Of a DNA stretch of 64,000 nucleotides, positions 9,899 to 17,336 are shown one piece after another (the first letter of the stretch is position 1; the number at the start of each line of letters is the position of its first letter). The position numbers were made by a program, and so were the translations under genes. The DNA comes from Lentzea albida (GTDB taxonomy: Bacteria; Actinomycetota; Actinomycetes; Mycobacteriales; Pseudonocardiaceae). The stretch spans positions 1-64,000 of the forward strand of contig NZ_FOFV01000006.1 of the NCBI RefSeq assembly GCF_900111005.1, written 5' to 3'. The notes beneath the pieces are model-generated. The model ran no database searches. It saw only the letters and a list, made by a program, of their open reading frames with translations, and was not told the DNA's origin.

Positions 9899-10509
9899 GC
9901 GACGGCTCCCGAGTGCAGTCCCAGCTTGTGCATGCGGACGGGGACGACCTGGCCCAGGTCGCTGACGACGTGGTCGATGAACCCGTACTCGCGTGCCTGC
10001 TCGGTGGTGAACCACCTGTCGTGCAGCGAGTCGGTGAAGATCCGGTCGAACGGCTGCCCGGTGTCGGCCGCGATCAGTCCGAGCACGGTGTCCCTCGTGT
10101 AGCGCAGGTCGTCGGCCTGCACCTCCACCTCGACGGCCGAGCCGCCGATGCCCGCACTCCCCTGGTGCATCAGGATCCGCGCGTGCGGCAACGCGAAGCG
10201 CTTGCCCGGCGTCCCCGCCGACAGCAGGAACTGCCCGGCACTGCAGGCGAGTCCGAGCGCCAGCGTCGCCACGTCGCACGGCACCAGCCGCATCACGTCG
10301 CGGATCGCCAGCATCGACGGCACCGACCCGCCCGGCGAGTTGATCCACAACGCGATGTCCTGCCGCGGGTCCTCGCTCGCCAGCGACAACATCTGCGTCG
10401 CCAGCACCGTGCCGTTGTCGTCGTCGAGGGCGCCGTCGAGGATCAGCACCCGCTGACCGAAGAACCGTTCTCGCAGCCCTGGGCTGAAGAGCTTCTCGCT
10501 GTTCGTCAT
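9895..10509 (-). CDS. ATP-dependent Clp protease proteolytic subunit (catalytic)
   Basis: ClpP of 204 residues with an intact triad: Ser90 in GLACSAGQFLL, His115 in ILMHQG and Asp164 in LHDRWFT. The INSPGGSV oxyanion segment is standard. It forms tetradecameric chambers that degrade proteins unfolded by ClpX or ClpC. It is the first gene of a two-clpP operon; the second subunit lacks its nucleophile. The arrangement beside a PopR-like regulator resembles the clpP3-clpP4 locus of Streptomyces, which is induced when ClpP1/P2 activity falls. A PopR-type palindrome is located 42 bp upstream of the start. Confidence 0.9.
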   Translation of the reverse strand: MTNSEKLFSPGLRERFFGQRVLILDGALDDDNGTVLATQMLSLASEDPRQDIALWINSPGGSVPSMLAIRDVMRLVPCDVATLALGLACSAGQFLLSAGTPGKRFALPHARILMHQGSAGIGGSAVEVEVQADDLRYTRDTVLGLIAADTGQPFDRIFTDSLHDRWFTTEQAREYGFIDHVVSDLGQVVPVRMHKLGLHSGAVA

Positions 10510-10550
10510 GGCACCGACGATGCCGGTCGGCGCAGGGGGTGCGCCGCCTT

Positions 10551-10567
10551 CTCTGCTGTGGGCAGAT
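10551..10567 (-). promoter_or_regulatory. PopR-type operator upstream of the clpP pair
   Basis: CTCTGCT-GTG-GGCAGAT, an imperfect palindrome that matches TTCTGCC-3N-GGCAGAA at 11 of 14 arm positions and shares the layout of the perfect site at 8858-8880. It lies between the end of the lasso B gene and the clpP start, at the position expected for the clpP promoter. Confidence 0.6.
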
Positions 10568-10583
10568 CAGCTCACAGCAGCCC

Positions 10584-11288
10584 TCACACGGCCAGCACCC
10601 GTTGGTAGGTGGGCGGAACCGGGTCGTCGAACGGGTCGGTGACCGGCTCGCCGTCCGCCTCGATCCACGCGTGGAACGCCTGCGGATCGCTCGCGACCCC
10701 CAGGCACCACTGCACCTCCCGGCCGCGCAGAGCCGCGGTCAGCGCGGCGGTCAGCGAAAGCTCGAGGCACGCCACCCGGCCCGGGTGGAACCTGCTCACG
10801 CGCTTGGCGGCCGCAAGCGCTTGCAGCGCTTCGGGTTTCGTCGCCGGACGCCTGGCCAGCCCCCGCTTCACGAACTTGAAGGCTCCCACCGTCCTGCGGA
10901 ACGGCAACCTCAGCAGCAGGAGCGCCACCGGCAACGCCACCGTCGCCACCAGCTGCGGCCTCCAGCCGGCGGAACCACGGGGAGCCAGTGCGATCGGCAC
11001 CCCGCCACTGCCGCGCACCGGGCTCTCGGGCTCGAGCAGGCCTCGTTCCACCAGGGCCGACACGCACCTCTCCGCGTGCAGTCGGACCTGCTCCCGCGGC
11101 TCCCCCGGATAGCGGCCGACGAACGTCTCGACCGCTGCCTCCACACCGTCGGCGCAGATCGCCGCGAAGAGCTCGTTCCCGCTGCGGTTCAGCTTGTGCC
11201 ACTGGCCGGTGGTCACGTTGAGCAGGACGAGACTCCCGTCGTCGTCAGCCTTCACGTGCACCGAATCGGGAACCACGAAGCGGGTCAT
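10584..11288 (-). CDS. fused lasso-peptide B protein (RRE + leader peptidase)
   Basis: A 234-residue protein with two parts. Residues 1-90 are a PqqD-like RRE (B1) domain (LVLLNVTTGQWHKLNRSGNELF, then a helical stretch), which binds the precursor leader. Residues 110-234 are a transglutaminase-fold B2 cysteine protease with Cys174 (GRVACLELSL), His206 (AFHAWIE) and Asp218 (PVTDP). A hydrophobic stretch at 111-130 separates them. The B2 part removes the leader so that the cyclase can close the ring. The ATG overlaps the cyclase stop as ATGA. Actinomycete lasso clusters usually encode B1 and B2 separately, so the fusion is notable. Confidence 0.9.
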   Translation of the reverse strand: MTRFVVPDSVHVKADDDGSLVLLNVTTGQWHKLNRSGNELFAAICADGVEAAVETFVGRYPGEPREQVRLHAERCVSALVERGLLEPESPVRGSGGVPIALAPRGSAGWRPQLVATVALPVALLLLRLPFRRTVGAFKFVKRGLARRPATKPEALQALAAAKRVSRFHPGRVACLELSLTAALTAALRGREVQWCLGVASDPQAFHAWIEADGEPVTDPFDDPVPPTYQRVLAV

Positions 11289-12955
11289 GCCGAAGCCACC
11301 TCTCTCGCGTTCGCCCGGAGCCACACTTCTACGGCGAGCACCTGGTTGAGCGCACCCCACGGCACCCGCAACCCGTTCACCGCGTCCTCGAGCGCCTGGC
11401 GAACAGGTGCCGGTTCGATGAGGCCGAAGTCGGCTGCCGCCGAGTCGGCCAGCAGCCTCCTGAGCCGGGGCGCCGCCCGCCGGAGACCCCGGTAGGCGTC
11501 GGAGCTGTAGTCGCCCTTGGTCTCCCTGGACAGGACCGCTTCGGGCACGAGGCCCGTCAGCGCCTTCTTCAGCAGAGGCTTCGCCACGGCCGGGTCGGCA
11601 CGCCGGTGCGCCGGGACCGCCATGGCCGCCCGGACGACGGCCGTGTCGAGGAACGGTGCGTGAACGGCGACTCCGGCCTGTTCGCCCACTTCCCGGTGAA
11701 CCTGTTGCGTGAGACCGTGCAGACGCAGCTGACTGAGCACAACGGACTCACCGGCGTCCACATCGGACTCCCGTTCCGCCACCTCGCGGGCCTGGGCGGC
11801 CAGCAGGGACCGGGTGTCCGCGGTCAGCCAGTCCACCCGCGGCACGTCCCAGCGAGCGACCACCGAGACTTCCCAGGGCGGGTCACCGACGGGCCCGCCC
11901 CGGTCCAGGGTGCCGGCGAGCCGGAGCAACGCGCGCCGGCGACCGAGTGCCGCCATGACCACGGACTGCCGGAACACGCTCAGCGGCGACCGGTTGCGCA
12001 TCCGCGCCCACGCGAAGCAGTGCCGCCACAACGTCACGAGCTCACCTCGCCGGGCGAGGTCGATGAAGTAGGCGCCGGGCGCCCACAGCACTGCGTCGCC
12101 ACCTTCACCCATCAGGTGGAGGTCGGCACCGAGCGCGGCCGCGGCGGAGAACCGGAGGCTTGCGGGACCGCAGGAGATCGAAGCCGCGTGCGGTTCGTCC
12201 CCCCACGACGCCAGGTCCTGGTAGGGAAGGTGTTCCGGCGACACCTTCACCAGTTGGTGGTCGAACCGCCGTTCGGACCTGACGTACCACTCCGCGCGGT
12301 CCAGGTCGTCGAGGACCGGGGAGTCCGGGTTGTGGTGCGTCAGCACGGGAAGCGTCGTCACGTCGTCTAGCGCGAGGTGGGCGAGCGTCGTCGAGTCGAG
12401 GCCACCGCTGAAGTCGGAGACCAGCTTCCGCGCGGACCGCGCGCGTGCCCGGACAGCGGTCACGAGCGCGTCGCGGAGCATGTCCGCGGCGTCCACAGTG
12501 GTCACATCGGGATCGGCGCTCAGCGGAGCACAGGACTCCTCGCCGAGGACGCCGTCGCCGAGGCGGACGGCGTGACCCTCGCGCACCCGCCGGACGCCCG
12601 CGCGCAGGCTGCGGTTCCCGAGGAGACCGGCTCCGTCGAGGCAGGCCAGCCGAGTGGCGAGGTAGACCCTGTCGAGGGCCGTGCCGAGCTCGACCGCCTT
12701 CGTGCCATGTCGCCCGGAATCGTCGTAGTAGAGCGGGAACTGGCCCACCGGGTCGGCGAACAGCGTCGTCACGCCGGGCTGCCGCACGACCGCCGAGTAG
12801 CACCCGACGTGGCCGGTCACCGGGCGGTGGTCACCGGTCTCGGTGAACTCGGCGAGCGACCGCGCGAGGACGCCCTCCTCGGCGAAGCACTGGCCGAAGA
12901 CCTCGAGGGAACCGGTGGAGTCCGGTGGCCTAGTTGAAACTCTGGCCGGAGGCAT
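11285..12955 (-). CDS. lasso-peptide macrolactam synthetase (asparagine-synthetase-like C protein)
   Basis: Asparagine-synthetase-B-like protein of about 556 residues. The ATP pyrophosphatase loop SDFSGGLDSTT is at about 180-190, and the C-terminal synthetase domain continues to WLRANAREVASA. The N-terminal glutaminase-like domain lacks an N-terminal catalytic Cys, as expected for lasso cyclases, which adenylate the side-chain carboxylate of Asp/Glu rather than use glutamine. Position between precursor and B gene supports this over true asparagine synthesis. The best start is the ATG at 12955, which lies inside the precursor core codons (26-bp overlap). It lacks a strong ribosome binding site, so the exact start is uncertain. 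Confidence 0.88.
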   Translation of the reverse strand: MPPARVSTRPPDSTGSLEVFGQCFAEEGVLARSLAEFTETGDHRPVTGHVGCYSAVVRQPGVTTLFADPVGQFPLYYDDSGRHGTKAVELGTALDRVYLATRLACLDGAGLLGNRSLRAGVRRVREGHAVRLGDGVLGEESCAPLSADPDVTTVDAADMLRDALVTAVRARARSARKLVSDFSGGLDSTTLAHLALDDVTTLPVLTHHNPDSPVLDDLDRAEWYVRSERRFDHQLVKVSPEHLPYQDLASWGDEPHAASISCGPASLRFSAAAALGADLHLMGEGGDAVLWAPGAYFIDLARRGELVTLWRHCFAWARMRNRSPLSVFRQSVVMAALGRRRALLRLAGTLDRGGPVGDPPWEVSVVARWDVPRVDWLTADTRSLLAAQAREVAERESDVDAGESVVLSQLRLHGLTQQVHREVGEQAGVAVHAPFLDTAVVRAAMAVPAHRRADPAVAKPLLKKALTGLVPEAVLSRETKGDYSSDAYRGLRRAAPRLRRLLADSAAADFGLIEPAPVRQALEDAVNGLRVPWGALNQVLAVEVWLRANAREVASA

Positions 12956-13070
12956 CGCTCGAACCGCTGGCGCTTCCGAAGGTGATGTCGTACACGGACC
13001 CCAGGTCGAACAGGACAGGCGGCTCGTACCCCTGGTCAGCCGCAACTCCGACGACGTCGTCCTCGATCAC
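12930..13070 (-). CDS. lasso-peptide precursor, predicted core GSASGSSDASGQSFN
   Basis: Precursor of 46 residues. The leader (1-31) holds the YxxPxLxxxG recognition motif (YEPPVLFDLG, Tyr15, Pro18, Leu20) bound by the RRE, and the conserved Thr at position -2 (Thr30, then Phe31). The core is 15 residues, codons 12933-12977. Gly1 and Asp8 give an 8-membered macrolactam ring, with a 7-residue loop and tail; Phe14 or Gln12 could be the plug. Start: GTG at 13070 preceded by GAGAGG with 7-nt spacing; GTG codons at 13085 and 13127 are in frame but lack this. The core is unusually Ser-rich (six Ser). Followed directly by the cyclase and B genes. Confidence 0.9.
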   Translation of the reverse strand: MIEDDVVGVAADQGYEPPVLFDLGSVYDITFGSASGSSDASGQSFN

Positions 13071-13218
13071 GAAAGTGCCTCTCACAGGTGGGCCCCAGCC
13101 AGCGGAAGGCGTAAGGGTAGCTCCCACTGTTGATCACCACGAGTCGGGCCTGAGGATACGAATCGCACGCTTGGCGGCTTCCAAATGATGCCTCGCACGC
13201 CGCTACCATGATTCGGCG

Positions 13219-13231
13219 CTTCGATTCGAAG
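13219..13231. promoter_or_regulatory. palindrome between lasso operon and ROK gene
   Basis: Perfect inverted repeat CTTCGA-T-TCGAAG in the 181-bp divergent region, 20 bp upstream of the ROK GTG start and just before its AGGAGG ribosome binding site (13240-13245). It could be an operator for the ROK protein acting on its own gene and on the lasso promoter. The assignment is a guess from position. Confidence 0.35.
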
Positions 13232-13251
13232 CTGAGGGCAGGAGGCACCGG

Positions 13252-14466
13252 GTGCCCACTGGCGGCGACAGGCACGCGCGAGAACTGATCTGGGGCCGGA
13301 CACCGGACACCCTGCGCGCCCTCAACCGCAGACGCGTGCTCCGCGCGATCATGGTCGCCCCCGCCACCCAGGTGCACCTCGCCGACTTCACCCGCCTCTC
13401 CCAGGCGACCGTCTCCGGGATCGTGCAGGAGCTGCAGCGGGACAACGTGGTCGCCGTCGACGGCACCGACAACGAACGAGGCAAGAAGATCGGCCTCACC
13501 AACGTCCGGGGCGTGGCCATCGGCGTCGAGGTCAGCTACGACACGGTCACCGTCGCCGCACGCCGGGTGGACGGCCCCCGCGTCGAGGTCGACAGGTCCG
13601 GGCGCGGCGCCGAACACGGCAGCCAGGCCTGGATGCGCGAGTGCGTGCAGCTGATCAGGGACGTCGTCCGGCGGACAGGCCTCGACGAGACCGACATCGT
13701 CGCGATCGGACTCGGCATCCCCGCCGCGGTGGACCCGCGCACGAGCACGATCTCCCAGGTCGCGTGGGCTCTCGACTGGGAACGCGGCGCGGATCCCGGC
13801 GCACGTCTGCAGGAGCACTTCCCCGGTGTGCCGGTGATCATGGACAACGAGGCGAACTACGCGGCGTACGGCGAACACCTCTACGGCGGCGGGCGCGGCA
13901 CCGAGACCATGCTGTTCGTCAAGTCGTCGACCAGTGTGAGCGCGGGACTGGTCATCGGCGGCCTGATCTACCGGGGGAGGCACGGCCTCGCGAGTGAGAT
14001 CGGGCATCTCGTGATGGACCCGAACGGCGTCGTCTGCCAGTGCGGCAACAGGGGCTGCCTCGAGACCGCGGTCGGCGGCGCACGCCTGGTCGAACAGGTC
14101 CGCCGGGCCTACGTCGGCTACCGCGTCGACCTGCCCACGAGCCTCGCGAACATAGTCGAGCGGGCGAAGACCGGGGACCTGTTGTGCCGCAGGGTCCTGC
14201 AGGACGCGGGCCGCGGCATCGGGATCGCGCTGGCCAGGACCTGCAACCTGCTCAACCCGGAGAAGGTGTTCATCGGCGGGGAGCTCGGCAGGGCCGCCGA
14301 CCTCGTGATCGAGCCGGCAGTGCAGTCGATGCGCCTGCACTCGCTCGGCGGGATGTTCAACTACGTGGCCCCGATGACCGTGGAGACCTCCGAACTGGGC
14401 CTGCAGGCGGGAGCGCTGGGCGCGCTCGCGTACGCGCTGACCGTGGACCACGTCCGGCAGAATTGA
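13252..14466 (+). CDS. ROK-family transcriptional regulator
   Basis: A 404-residue ROK (NagC/XylR-type) regulator. Residues 20-85 form a MarR-like winged helix (QVHLADFTRLSQATVSGIVQELQRD). The ROK kinase-fold follows, with a sugar-binding ExGH segment (EIGHLVMDPNG) and zinc site CQCGNRGCLE. The DxGxT phosphate loop at the start of the ROK domain is altered (GVAIGVEVSYDTV), so it is a sugar-sensing regulator rather than a kinase. GTG start with AGGAGG six bases upstream. It is divergent from the lasso-peptide operon and is the obvious local candidate regulator for it, implying carbon-source control. Its true target could equally be elsewhere. Confidence 0.9.
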   Translation: MPTGGDRHARELIWGRTPDTLRALNRRRVLRAIMVAPATQVHLADFTRLSQATVSGIVQELQRDNVVAVDGTDNERGKKIGLTNVRGVAIGVEVSYDTVTVAARRVDGPRVEVDRSGRGAEHGSQAWMRECVQLIRDVVRRTGLDETDIVAIGLGIPAAVDPRTSTISQVAWALDWERGADPGARLQEHFPGVPVIMDNEANYAAYGEHLYGGGRGTETMLFVKSSTSVSAGLVIGGLIYRGRHGLASEIGHLVMDPNGVVCQCGNRGCLETAVGGARLVEQVRRAYVGYRVDLPTSLANIVERAKTGDLLCRRVLQDAGRGIGIALARTCNLLNPEKVFIGGELGRAADLVIEPAVQSMRLHSLGGMFNYVAPMTVETSELGLQAGALGALAYALTVDHVRQN

Positions 14467-14618
14467 AGCACCCGAGTCTTTGATTTCGGCGTGATCAACG
14501 ATCACCTCAAACGACGAGGCCTTTCCCAAAGAATTCGTTGTTGCTTCTCCCACACGAATTTAACCTGGTCGTGGCGCCACACTCCACCCCGGCAAGCCGA
14601 TTCGCAAGGGGGCCCACC

Positions 14619-15224
14619 ATGACCGCCTCGCCCGACAGGTCCGGTCGATCCACCGGTCGATGGGACCACGTCAACCACTCCCTCCTGTTCCTCGAAATCG
14701 CTTCCCTGCACGGACCCGGCGGCACCGAGAGCGACCGCGAGGTCGCTCGGGCACCGCTGCACCGGGTGGTGCGCAACGCTTTCGCGGACTCGGACATCCC
14801 CTGGAGCAACTGCCGCCACGTCGAACGACACGACGGCGTGCTGGTCGTCATCCCTCCCAGCGTCACCACGTCGGTGATCGTCGACCGGCTGATCCCCCAC
14901 ATCCAGAACGGTGTGCGGCGCTACAACCGCGAAGCCGCGCCCGTCCGGATGCAGCTCCGGGCTTCGCTGCACGTCGGTCCCGTCACCGTGAGCCCGGACG
15001 GCTTGTCGGGGCAGGCGATCGCCGCGGCCGCCCGTCTCCTGAACACGCCGGAACTGGCCGGCAGCGACGCCGACCTCGCGGTGATGGTGTCCTCGCAGGT
15101 CTACGAGACCGTGATCCGGCACGCTTCCGGATTCGCCGATCCCACGCGATATCTGGAGATCAGCTCGGGAGCGTGGTTGTTCGCGCCGGAACCCGGTGTG
15201 TACCCGCGGCACTGGGCGGGCTGA
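14619..15224 (+). CDS. nucleotidyl-cyclase-fold protein, probably inactive
   Basis: A 201-residue protein preceded by an AAGGGGG ribosome binding site. The pattern of a leading strand (HSLLFLEIASL), a central HDGVLVVIPPSV strand and ASLHVGPVTVSPDGLSGQAIAAAARLLNTPEL resembles the class III adenylyl/guanylyl cyclase homology domain seen in many actinomycete orphan proteins. The metal-binding Asp pair and base-specificity residues are not recognisable, so catalytic activity is doubtful. It may be a degenerate cyclase used as a regulator. It stands alone, 150 bp after the ROK gene. The assignment rests on pattern only. Confidence 0.55.
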   Translation: MTASPDRSGRSTGRWDHVNHSLLFLEIASLHGPGGTESDREVARAPLHRVVRNAFADSDIPWSNCRHVERHDGVLVVIPPSVTTSVIVDRLIPHIQNGVRRYNREAAPVRMQLRASLHVGPVTVSPDGLSGQAIAAAARLLNTPELAGSDADLAVMVSSQVYETVIRHASGFADPTRYLEISSGAWLFAPEPGVYPRHWAG

Positions 15225-15447
15225 GCCGGGACGAACCCGTCCGCCGGGCGGCCCGGTACGTCGACGTCCACGGCGAACAGCGCGCGGTCCAGCCGTCCGT
15301 CCGGGCGGTAGCGGCGGGCGCCCAGGTCGCGGTCAGAAGGAGAACGCAGGGCCGTCCGGGATCGTCAGTCCTTTGAGGACTGGACATGACGATCCCCGGC
15401 GGCGCAGGGACCTCCCCCTGCTCGCCGAGCGCGAGCACGTCGGTCAT
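15160..15447 (-). pseudogene. remnant ORF coupled to the mutarotase gene
   Basis: The stop of the mutarotase-like gene overlaps an ATG as ATGA, as if a second gene followed in the operon. That frame begins MTDVLALGE, which looks like the start of a PfkB-type sugar kinase, but then turns into low-information Arg/Thr/Pro-rich sequence and ends after 95 codons. Its last part lies antisense to the preceding gene. A plausible reading is a kinase gene reduced by internal deletion. It could also be a chance ORF. Confidence 0.35.
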
Positions 15448-16202
15448 GCCGTTCCTCCCGCGAGGGCGGTGATCGTCAGGCGCCAGCGCACCGAACCCGA
15501 GGCGGGCACGACCGCCACCGGACGGGTGGTGTCGGCGCGGTCGAAGGTGCGGCCGAGCATGGGTTCCACGCCGACGCTGCGGTACGGGGCGTCTTCCGGC
15601 CAGCCGCGCAGGTTGCGCCACAACGCGATCGACACGGGCTGGTCATCGCACTCGACGCGCAGGTCCAGCTGCTGGTCTCCGTCGACCACGCGGATCTGGT
15701 CGCGTTCCAGCACCGCGCCTACCGCCGTGCCGTCATCGGGGCCGAGCGCGTCGAGGCCCGCCGGCCACTCGCGCAGCAGCGGTTGTGGGTCCGTGATCAG
15801 CACCGGGGTGCCGGGAGGGGCGTCCAGGCGGGCGGACGCGCTGACGTCGAGCAGGGCGTGCGCCGCCCAGACGAAGCGGTAGCCGGGCTCGGCGGTCAAC
15901 TCGTAGTCGGCGACGACCGCGCCGCCGTCGGAGGCGAGCACGCGGGTGAGCGCGAAGTCGGGGCAGTCCACGCCGGTCCGGTGCCACGGCCTGCTCCAGG
16001 CGTCGCCGTGGTCGGGTACGCCGCGCACCGTCGGGACGCACTCCTCCAAGCCGCCCGCGTCGACGAACGCGGACCCCGGCACCACCTCGGCGCGCGCGGG
16101 ATCGGCCCTGTGCCACAGCCATTCGCGGTCTGCCGCGCGCAGCGAGGTCCAGCGGCCGCCCAGGGCGTGGTCGACCTCGACGTGCAGCGGCACGACCCGC
16201 AC
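15444..16202 (-). CDS. galactose-mutarotase-like (aldose 1-epimerase-fold) protein
   Basis: A 252-residue, beta-rich protein. The spacing of segments such as GGLEECVPTVRGVPDHGDAWSRPWHRTG (substrate-side His/Asp), YELTAEPGYRFVWAAHALLDVS and a late SGSVRWRLTITAL strand fits the supersandwich fold of aldose epimerases and related mutarotases. The central WAAHALLD contains the His at the usual catalytic-His position. The GTG start has GGAGG six bases upstream. Upstream it carries a copy of the half-site found in the PTS operator, so it may belong to the same sugar regulon. The sugar is unknown. Confidence 0.7.
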   Translation of the reverse strand: MRVVPLHVEVDHALGGRWTSLRAADREWLWHRADPARAEVVPGSAFVDAGGLEECVPTVRGVPDHGDAWSRPWHRTGVDCPDFALTRVLASDGGAVVADYELTAEPGYRFVWAAHALLDVSASARLDAPPGTPVLITDPQPLLREWPAGLDALGPDDGTAVGAVLERDQIRVVDGDQQLDLRVECDDQPVSIALWRNLRGWPEDAPYRSVGVEPMLGRTFDRADTTRPVAVVPASGSVRWRLTITALAGGTA

Positions 16203-16274: not shown

Positions 16275-17192
16275 TCAGCCCGTCGTGCAGGCGGCCTCGT
16301 TGAGTGTGAACGAGGACGGCGCGGTGTTCCTGCCGCCGGAGGCCCCGATGAACCCGATGGTCACCTCGCCGCGGGACGGGATGGTCCTCGCCTGGTCGAC
16401 GCCGGTCACGCTCACGGAGCCGTTGCGCTGGGACACCGTCGCGTTCCACACCTCGCGCACCGTCTGACCGTCCGCGAACGACCACCGCAGCGTCCAGCCG
16501 TTGATCGAGGAACCGCCGTTGTTCCTGATGGTGACCCGGCCCTGGAAGCCGCCCTGCCACTGGTTGTCGACCCGGTAGGCGACCGTGCACGTGGCCGCCG
16601 CCGCGGTGGGCGTGACGACGGGAGGCGCGGTCGTGGTCGTGGCCGCGGCCTTCGACGACTCGGCGGGTTGTGAGGAGGACGGAGCCGTCGTGGTCGTCGG
16701 TGCCGCCGATGACGACGACGTGTCCTTGCCGTTGCAGGGCGCACCCCACAGACCGCGGTCCTCGCGCTCGGCGCCCTTCTCGGCGTCGGCGAGCGCACCG
16801 GCCCCGGACTGGGCCCGCAACGCGCCCTCCCGCACGGCGAGCGACGCGTAGTCGGTGTCGTCCTCCAGCCGGAGGTGCACCTCCCCCGGGGTCACCGTGG
16901 TGACGCGGACCGTCTTGGCCAGCAACCGCTTCTCGGCGAACGTGCGCGCGGAGGCCGCCCAGCAGGTCGCGGGCGGCGCCAGCGACGACACCTGGACGCG
17001 CTCACCGGTGTCGAGCTCGATCGTCCGGCCGTCGATCACCTTGCGCACCACGGCCGACAGCTCGCCCTGGACGTCCTTGACCAACGTCGGCTGACGCACC
17101 TGCACAGGAGGCGTCGCGGGAAGAGGCGGACTTTCCGCCCCGCACGCACACGCGAAAAGAACCAGCAGAAAAGCCAAGGACTTCCGTAACAC
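16275..17192 (-). CDS. lipoprotein with SNase-like domain and C-terminal CBM2
   Basis: A 305-residue secreted protein. Parts in order: lipoprotein signal (LRKSLAFLLVLFAC), a thermonuclease/SNase-like beta-barrel at about 45-140 (SAVVRKVIDGRTIELDTGERV, then TFAEKRLLAKTVRV and a final DRGLWG), a Ser/Thr/Pro-rich linker, and a family 2 carbohydrate-binding module (CTVAYRVDNQWQGGFQG, INGWTLRWSF, closing Cys) that binds cellulose or chitin. The catalytic Arg/Glu set of true nucleases is not evident. The GTG start at 17192 has GGGGGAG upstream; its second codon is the rare TTA. It may be a surface protein held to plant polysaccharide. Confidence 0.75.
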   Translation of the reverse strand: MLRKSLAFLLVLFACACGAESPPLPATPPVQVRQPTLVKDVQGELSAVVRKVIDGRTIELDTGERVQVSSLAPPATCWAASARTFAEKRLLAKTVRVTTVTPGEVHLRLEDDTDYASLAVREGALRAQSGAGALADAEKGAEREDRGLWGAPCNGKDTSSSSAAPTTTTAPSSSQPAESSKAAATTTTAPPVVTPTAAAATCTVAYRVDNQWQGGFQGRVTIRNNGGSSINGWTLRWSFADGQTVREVWNATVSQRNGSVSVTGVDQARTIPSRGEVTIGFIGASGGRNTAPSSFTLNEAACTTG

Positions 17193-17336
17193 GAGGGACT
17201 CCCCCACACGTTCATCCAACCGCCATGATCGTAGCGCCCTGCGCGCACGGCCGACACCGATCGTTCGGTATCGACCGGTCGGCGCGGAGTCGCCGGCCCG
17301 GAACCATTTACCTGATCACTCGGGCATAATGGCGCT

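Follow-up and report, generated by a model that had tools for sequence, protein, structure and literature searches.

The window analysed here is a stretch of 64,000 nt of the Lentzea albida contig NZ_FOFV01000006.1 (positions 1–64,000, forward strand), on which this soil bacterium is predicted to carry a compact gene set for a small knotted peptide. The lasso genes A, C and B all lie within 10584–13070 on the minus strand. An earlier note had proposed this three-gene locus without giving its strand, and our analysis confirmed it. Gene A (12930–13070, minus strand) is a lasso precursor gene of 46 codons. It starts with a GTG at 13070, has an AGAGG stretch upstream of this codon, and specifies the leader VIEDDVVGVAADQGYEPPVLFDLGSVYDITF (12978–13070) followed by the core GSASGSSDASGQSFN (12933–12977, minus strand). 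Lasso precursors follow a few rules, namely a YxxP motif in the leader, Thr at position −2, Gly1 at the head of the core and an Asp or Glu at positions 7–9. We observed all these features in A, with a predicted Gly1–Asp8 ring, just as they had been read before. The mass of the cyclised core, given earlier as ∼1339.53 (M+H ∼1340.53), was recomputed as 1339.528 (M+H 1340.535).

The identical core is carried by L. waywayandensis, whose leader end has diverged and whose cyclase is 79% identical to that of the window. Over the last 32 codons of A, which run from the Tyr of the leader through the whole core, the two genes differ by 0 amino-acid and 4 silent changes, and over the first 14 codons by 7 amino-acid changes, the start codon among them. 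As the last 32 codons change only silently, the precursor is more than a chance reading frame.

The cyclase gene C (11285–12955, minus strand) likely starts at the ATG at 12955, inside gene A. Its product matches PF00733 (1.4e-32; 114.2 bits against a cut-off of 21) and retains the SGGLDS loop in the alignment, and is a cyclase of the asparagine-synthetase type used in lasso biosynthesis. Against NF033561, the model of the albusnodin/ikarugamycin macrolactam cyclases, it scores 297.1 bits, just below the cut-off of 300; its relatives L097, L104 and L109 score 333.8, 310 and 299.8, respectively. Gene B (10584–11288, minus strand) joins C through an ATGA overlap. Its product has an N-terminal PqqD/RRE domain (PF05402, 27.8 versus 23.4 bits), on which the earlier note was silent, fused to a transglutaminase-like leader peptidase (PF13471, 4e-20); the match to NF033537 ('lasso peptide biosynthesis B2') reaches 84.8 bits, the cut-off being 33, and all three models score above their cut-offs. 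Of the Cys-His-Asp triad assigned previously to this peptidase, Cys174 and His206 are identical in all 10 aligned relatives. The Asp is less clear, the candidates being Asp218 (5/10) and Asp221 (8/10). These sequence comparisons support the earlier interpretation of the locus as a lasso-peptide operon, in which ring closure and threading are predicted steps. The precursor, core and mass of that interpretation stood; what it had missed were the family, the ROK regulator, the palindromic site and the RRE domain of B described here.

We scanned genome contigs using ten Lentzea cyclases as queries and obtained 41 loci. Thirty were classed as one family, and the other 11 comprise ten loci with a methyltransferase gene and one fragment. 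Precursors could be parsed for the window and 29 of the loci (n = 30); 11 have the ring residue at Asp8 and 19 at Asp9. The locus without a parsed precursor, L128, in which the core is frameshifted and the genes for the cyclase and ROK are split, was not used for the operator, the distances or the tree. L130, which runs into a contig end, was left out of the distances and the tree, and L132 and L134, which are broken or fragmentary, from the tree. L128 belongs to Streptomyces sp. P3 and represents either a decayed cassette or assembly errors. Gly1, the second Gly of the ring and its Asp do not vary in the alignment of 25 family precursors; a locus found later, L160 (core GVNGTTYEDNNKQTYD), departs from this pattern. 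The ring of the window, GSASGSSD, was found again in another genus (G114).

In a cyclase tree of 38 rows, the ring-8 group that includes the window (100/98), the ring-9 group (99/97) and the methyltransferase group (100/96) each occupy one side of a branch. The ring-9 members span three families, Streptomycetaceae, Pseudonocardiaceae and Streptosporangiaceae, and their core is near-invariant, mostly GSSSSG(N/T/S)ADANSQYYW. The match of one strain deposited as Nocardia (L122) is the same as that of G016, a genome assigned to Lentzea in the genome collection. Within Lentzea, 10 of the 24 genomes have the family cyclase and 17 have any cyclase match. The family members were taken as the best 10 matches (E 2.5e-58 or better), all with fitting cores; the next match (1.6e-51) has a different core. 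A single genome, that of Lentzea sp. NBRC 105346 (G019), has six lasso-type cyclase matches.

Such strong conservation of a core could point to a conserved signal or an intracellular ligand rather than a weapon. Ring-9 cores are on average 82% identical and their cyclases 48% (153 pairs). Across the 30 loci, we found no recurrent transporter or immunity gene in the conserved unit; an ABC-type cluster occurs in four of them (L103, L104, L106 and L107), its Pfam basis coming from L107 only. In the ring-8 clade of the window, however, the core varies like the cyclase (51% and 51%, 55 pairs), and other lasso groups, for example the methyltransferase group in this study, also conserve their cores. 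We therefore regard a signal or ligand as a tentative and rather unlikely explanation.

Divergent from A lies a gene for a ROK-family regulator (13252–14466, plus strand), the product of which has both a helix-turn-helix (HTH; PF12802, 28.1 versus 27 bits) and a ROK domain (PF00480, 8.9e-46; 157.2 versus 22.9 bits). Among the 24 Lentzea genomes, the 10 with the family cyclase, and no others, have this ROK at E 1e-60 or better (Fisher p 5e-7, genomes treated as independent). It lies inside the retrieved stretch at 29 of the 30 loci (30/31 with the window), the exception being L. jiangxiensis, where it is 7.8 kb away. We also surveyed 297 Pseudonocardiaceae genomes with limits of 1e-105 and 1e-110; the models A1 and A3 include rows from some of these genomes, so that the survey is not an independent test of detection. 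We drew the border of the family between 1.8e-134 and 9.0e-124, and 27 family cyclase copies (1.8e-134 or better) were present in 26 genomes, 16 of them outside Lentzea. A ROK gene is on the same contig in all 27 cases, within 1.3 kb in 24 and at 5.1, 7.8 and 8.1 kb in the remaining three. None of the six lower-scoring, more distant cyclases in these genomes has a ROK on its contig. The distances among the C sequences correlate with those among the ROK sequences (L109, which has no ROK in its stretch, being left out of the latter), with r 0.924 over 28 loci, a value reached in 0 of 2000 permutations; because the loci share descent, neither the locus counts nor the permutations amount to independent tests. 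These comparisons support the ROK gene as a constant partner of this lasso clade.

The predicted structure of the ROK protein (mean pLDDT 85.8) has its best matches in 1z05 (a homologue of Mlc), 5f7q (Lmo0178 bound to its operator) and 1z6r (Mlc). It shares with Mlc/NagC and Lmo0178 the HTH plus ROK domain architecture, and differs from them in its linkage to a lasso operon and in sequence, being only 22–23% identical to the structural matches. The ATP-binding DxGG motif is lost (by eye), and therefore the protein is not a kinase.

The palindrome GCTTCGATTCGAAGC (13218–13232), between A and ROK, is a candidate ROK binding site. The site of NagC/Mlc differs from it. The consensus of the palindrome, TTCRANTYGAA, was derived from the same family loci in which it was then counted, and has 31 copies in the 495,947 bases of the 30 loci. 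As many as 29 precede A, ROK or the gene adjoining ROK in seven relatives; one of the other two is ∼50–60 bases before the distant ROK of L. jiangxiensis, and one (L113) is unexplained. The exact palindrome has a promoter copy in 26 of the 30 loci and was not found at this place in L103, L112, L114 and L117, among which L103 and L112 have one-mismatch forms. When the half-sites were permuted (60 permutations, the motif included), the runner-up had 17 of 20 copies in promoters and overlaps the motif, and the others had at most 1. Twelve further stretches, ten with the cassette and two with ROK only, were scored with promoter windows wider than in the 30-locus count. Six of their seven copies are in promoters, yet only 5 of the 12 stretches have one, and an overlapping control half-site, TTCAR, has 8 sites in all versus 7. 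In four Streptomyces loci (L106, L107, L115 and L131) the palindrome sits before ROK instead, and they have in common GGCTAAAGTCGAATA, ∼190–200 bases ahead of the codon for the leader Tyr in A.

The window itself has one copy of the palindrome, and 100 shuffles of it have none. Genome-wide, the 13-base palindrome is not enriched, with 4 copies versus 4 for the reversed control. A wider ROK regulon in the genome of the window was rejected on this count. Two of the other three genomic copies are within reading frames, and one has no qualifying frame nearby. We searched 10450–15500 for sigma-70-like promoters and intrinsic terminators and found none. We propose that the palindrome is a local operator of ROK, not the mark of a regulon, and treat it as a candidate site.

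In seven relatives (L097–L103, e.g. L102:4396–6054), a glycerophosphotransferase-like gene adjoins ROK. Its full name, CDP-glycerol glycerophosphotransferase, comes from one weak Pfam match in L097 (24.6 versus 22.1 bits), with none for L102, and it gave one PDB match at E 0.049. This gene could be the true target of ROK, as a neighbour whose address the lasso operon merely shares. Such an arrangement would suit the five palindromes that precede the glycerophosphotransferase-like gene, and also two ROK copies, in G043 and the second one in G149, which this gene accompanies in the absence of a family cyclase. However, the other 27 of the 29 ROK copies in the 297 genomes share a contig with the cyclase, in both divergent and co-directional orders, and 15 palindromes precede A, most of which, in divergent loci, also precede ROK. 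Moreover, the genome of the window has ROK but no match to the glycerophosphotransferase-like gene. We consider it improbable that the lasso operon is a bystander, and retain ROK as its putative regulator.

On the other side of the cassette, a clpP pair starts 75 bp beyond B and is present in all 24 Lentzea genomes, 14 of which are without the cassette. The border is marked by a conserved element before the clpP pair (10553–10580, minus strand), 3 nt from the stop codon of B, which is retained, with slight differences, across the 13 Lentzea stretches compared. In genomes where the cassette is at another place or absent, the element is abutted by a truncated gluconolactonase-like gene (G001, by eye) or by the orthologue of 15444–16202 (G013); the orthologue of 16275–17219 abuts it in G006, G012 and G017, the cassette of G012 being elsewhere. 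Two distant cassette lineages, the window with L094–L096 and L100 with L102, occupy the same clpP-side place. The clpP-side border may be an insertion hot spot, or else a place of repeated deletion. The element forms a fixed border (regions 10553–10584 and 15224–15460 of the window) at which different genes or cassettes abut depending on the Lentzea species. The region 14538–15224 (plus strand, start uncertain) encodes a protein without a match in Pfam or NCBIfam. Its close relatives (72–84%) are confined to the flank of the cassette in G007, G022 and G011, and it is a probable passenger of the insertion. Distant relatives of this protein are present in 20 of the 24 Lentzea genomes, often within longer frames.

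Lassomycin acts on ClpC1, and the clpP pair might be a resistance copy that protects against a peptide antibiotic with ClpP or a partner of ClpP as its target. The genome of the window has two clpP pairs, the pair in question follows B on the same strand, and six of the ten Lentzea cassettes adjoin it. The distribution of the pair speaks against this: the extra copy is not confined to producers, as all 24 genomes have it and 10 have the cassette; four Lentzea cassettes sit elsewhere; and the front element is kept where no cassette is present. Furthermore, the pair is 88–99% identical in the genus, whereas the cassettes that occupy this place share only 44–45% identity in the cyclase. Self-resistance through clpP was rejected on these grounds, and we judge a ClpP-directed antibiotic to be extremely improbable.

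We compared the family with known lasso systems. The core GSASGSSDASGQSFN was not found in a search of open-access papers, and within this scope no described peptide has this core; the earlier note had likewise not recognised it as a known lasso peptide. The other family core strings searched there were also not found, except GSSSSGNAD, which appears as a 'putative macrolactam domain (GSSSSGNAD)' in a predicted lassopeptide of Streptomyces fildesensis So13.3 (PMC6522549). This is the ring string of our ring-9 member L105 from S. fildesensis INACH3013. The So13.3 peptide is a prediction only, with a ring of 9 as against 8 in the window, and the passage describing it lists other regulators and does not name a ROK (PMC6522549). 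Albusnodin of Streptomyces albus requires an acetyltransferase and has an acetylated Lys10 (PMC9266682). The window has in common with it the actinomycete lasso operon and the cyclase family NF033561 (at the scores given above); unlike albusnodin, its core lacks Lys, and the neighbouring genes that we scanned include none recognised as an acetyltransferase. In the cellulonodin-2/lihuanodin type, a methyltransferase forms an aspartimide (PMC9266682). The methyltransferase group, which includes Thermobifida cellulosilytica (L121), the source of cellulonodin-2, is of this type and sister to our family in the cyclase tree. Ten of its 11 loci carry the methyltransferase, and none a ROK of this kind; L121 has a ROK of 30% identity more than 6 kb away. 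The window, in contrast, has no isoaspartyl-type methyltransferase beside the cassette, and residue 6 of its core is Ser in place of the conserved Asp6.

Among open papers, we found none tying a ROK regulator to lasso peptides that bears on this family, and a search with NagC was also empty. Where 'ROK' occurs in the passages retrieved, it denotes a B. subtilis rok mutant used as host (PMC13381572) or listed ROK glucokinases (PMC10293955), both unrelated to the lasso-linked regulator. A survey of Lentzea genomes (PMC9120177) lists lasso clusters that show little similarity to known ones, and some of the family loci may be among these. The Ser/Gly-rich lasso family that travels with its own ROK gene and a common DNA site is apparently undescribed.

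We consider it likely that the locus makes a lasso peptide of class II (Cys-free, with a predicted Gly1–Asp8 ring) from a minimal A–C–B operon with its own ROK-family regulator, a reading for which comparison among the loci shows, at the level of sequence, the gene set, the conservation of the core, the linkage of ROK and the placement of the palindrome. By what is known of such enzymes, the RRE half of B would bind the YEPPVL leader motif, its peptidase half would cut after Phe(−1), and C would activate Asp8 and couple it with Gly1, closing the ring around the ASGQSFN tail. With Gln12 and Phe14 as the only bulky residues among the seven of the tail, the thread may not be stable. The ROK protein would bind the palindrome between ROK and A, its likely site, and would thereby control itself as well as A–C–B. 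By analogy with Mlc/NagC-type regulators, it would act as a repressor that is relieved by a sugar-type effector. As the conserved unit encodes no exporter, the peptide would either be released by another transporter or act inside the cell. A further variant, in which the exporter-less and, in ring-9 members, nearly unchanged peptide is a signal or regulatory ligand instead of a weapon, and is read by ROK in place of or together with a sugar, appears to us very unlikely.

The lasso operon of the window is real and ordinary in its make-up, and its interest lies in the family, with a conserved core, a constant ROK and a candidate operator. These features set apart a family of lasso peptides that has its own dedicated regulator. 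In many actinomycetes, finding the effector of ROK or removing ROK would offer a way into lasso operons that are silent. As the ring-9 core hardly varies and comes without a transporter, one may ask what function the peptide serves, and the two sister clades, one ring residue apart, allow homologous enzymes to be used in tests of how ring size is controlled.
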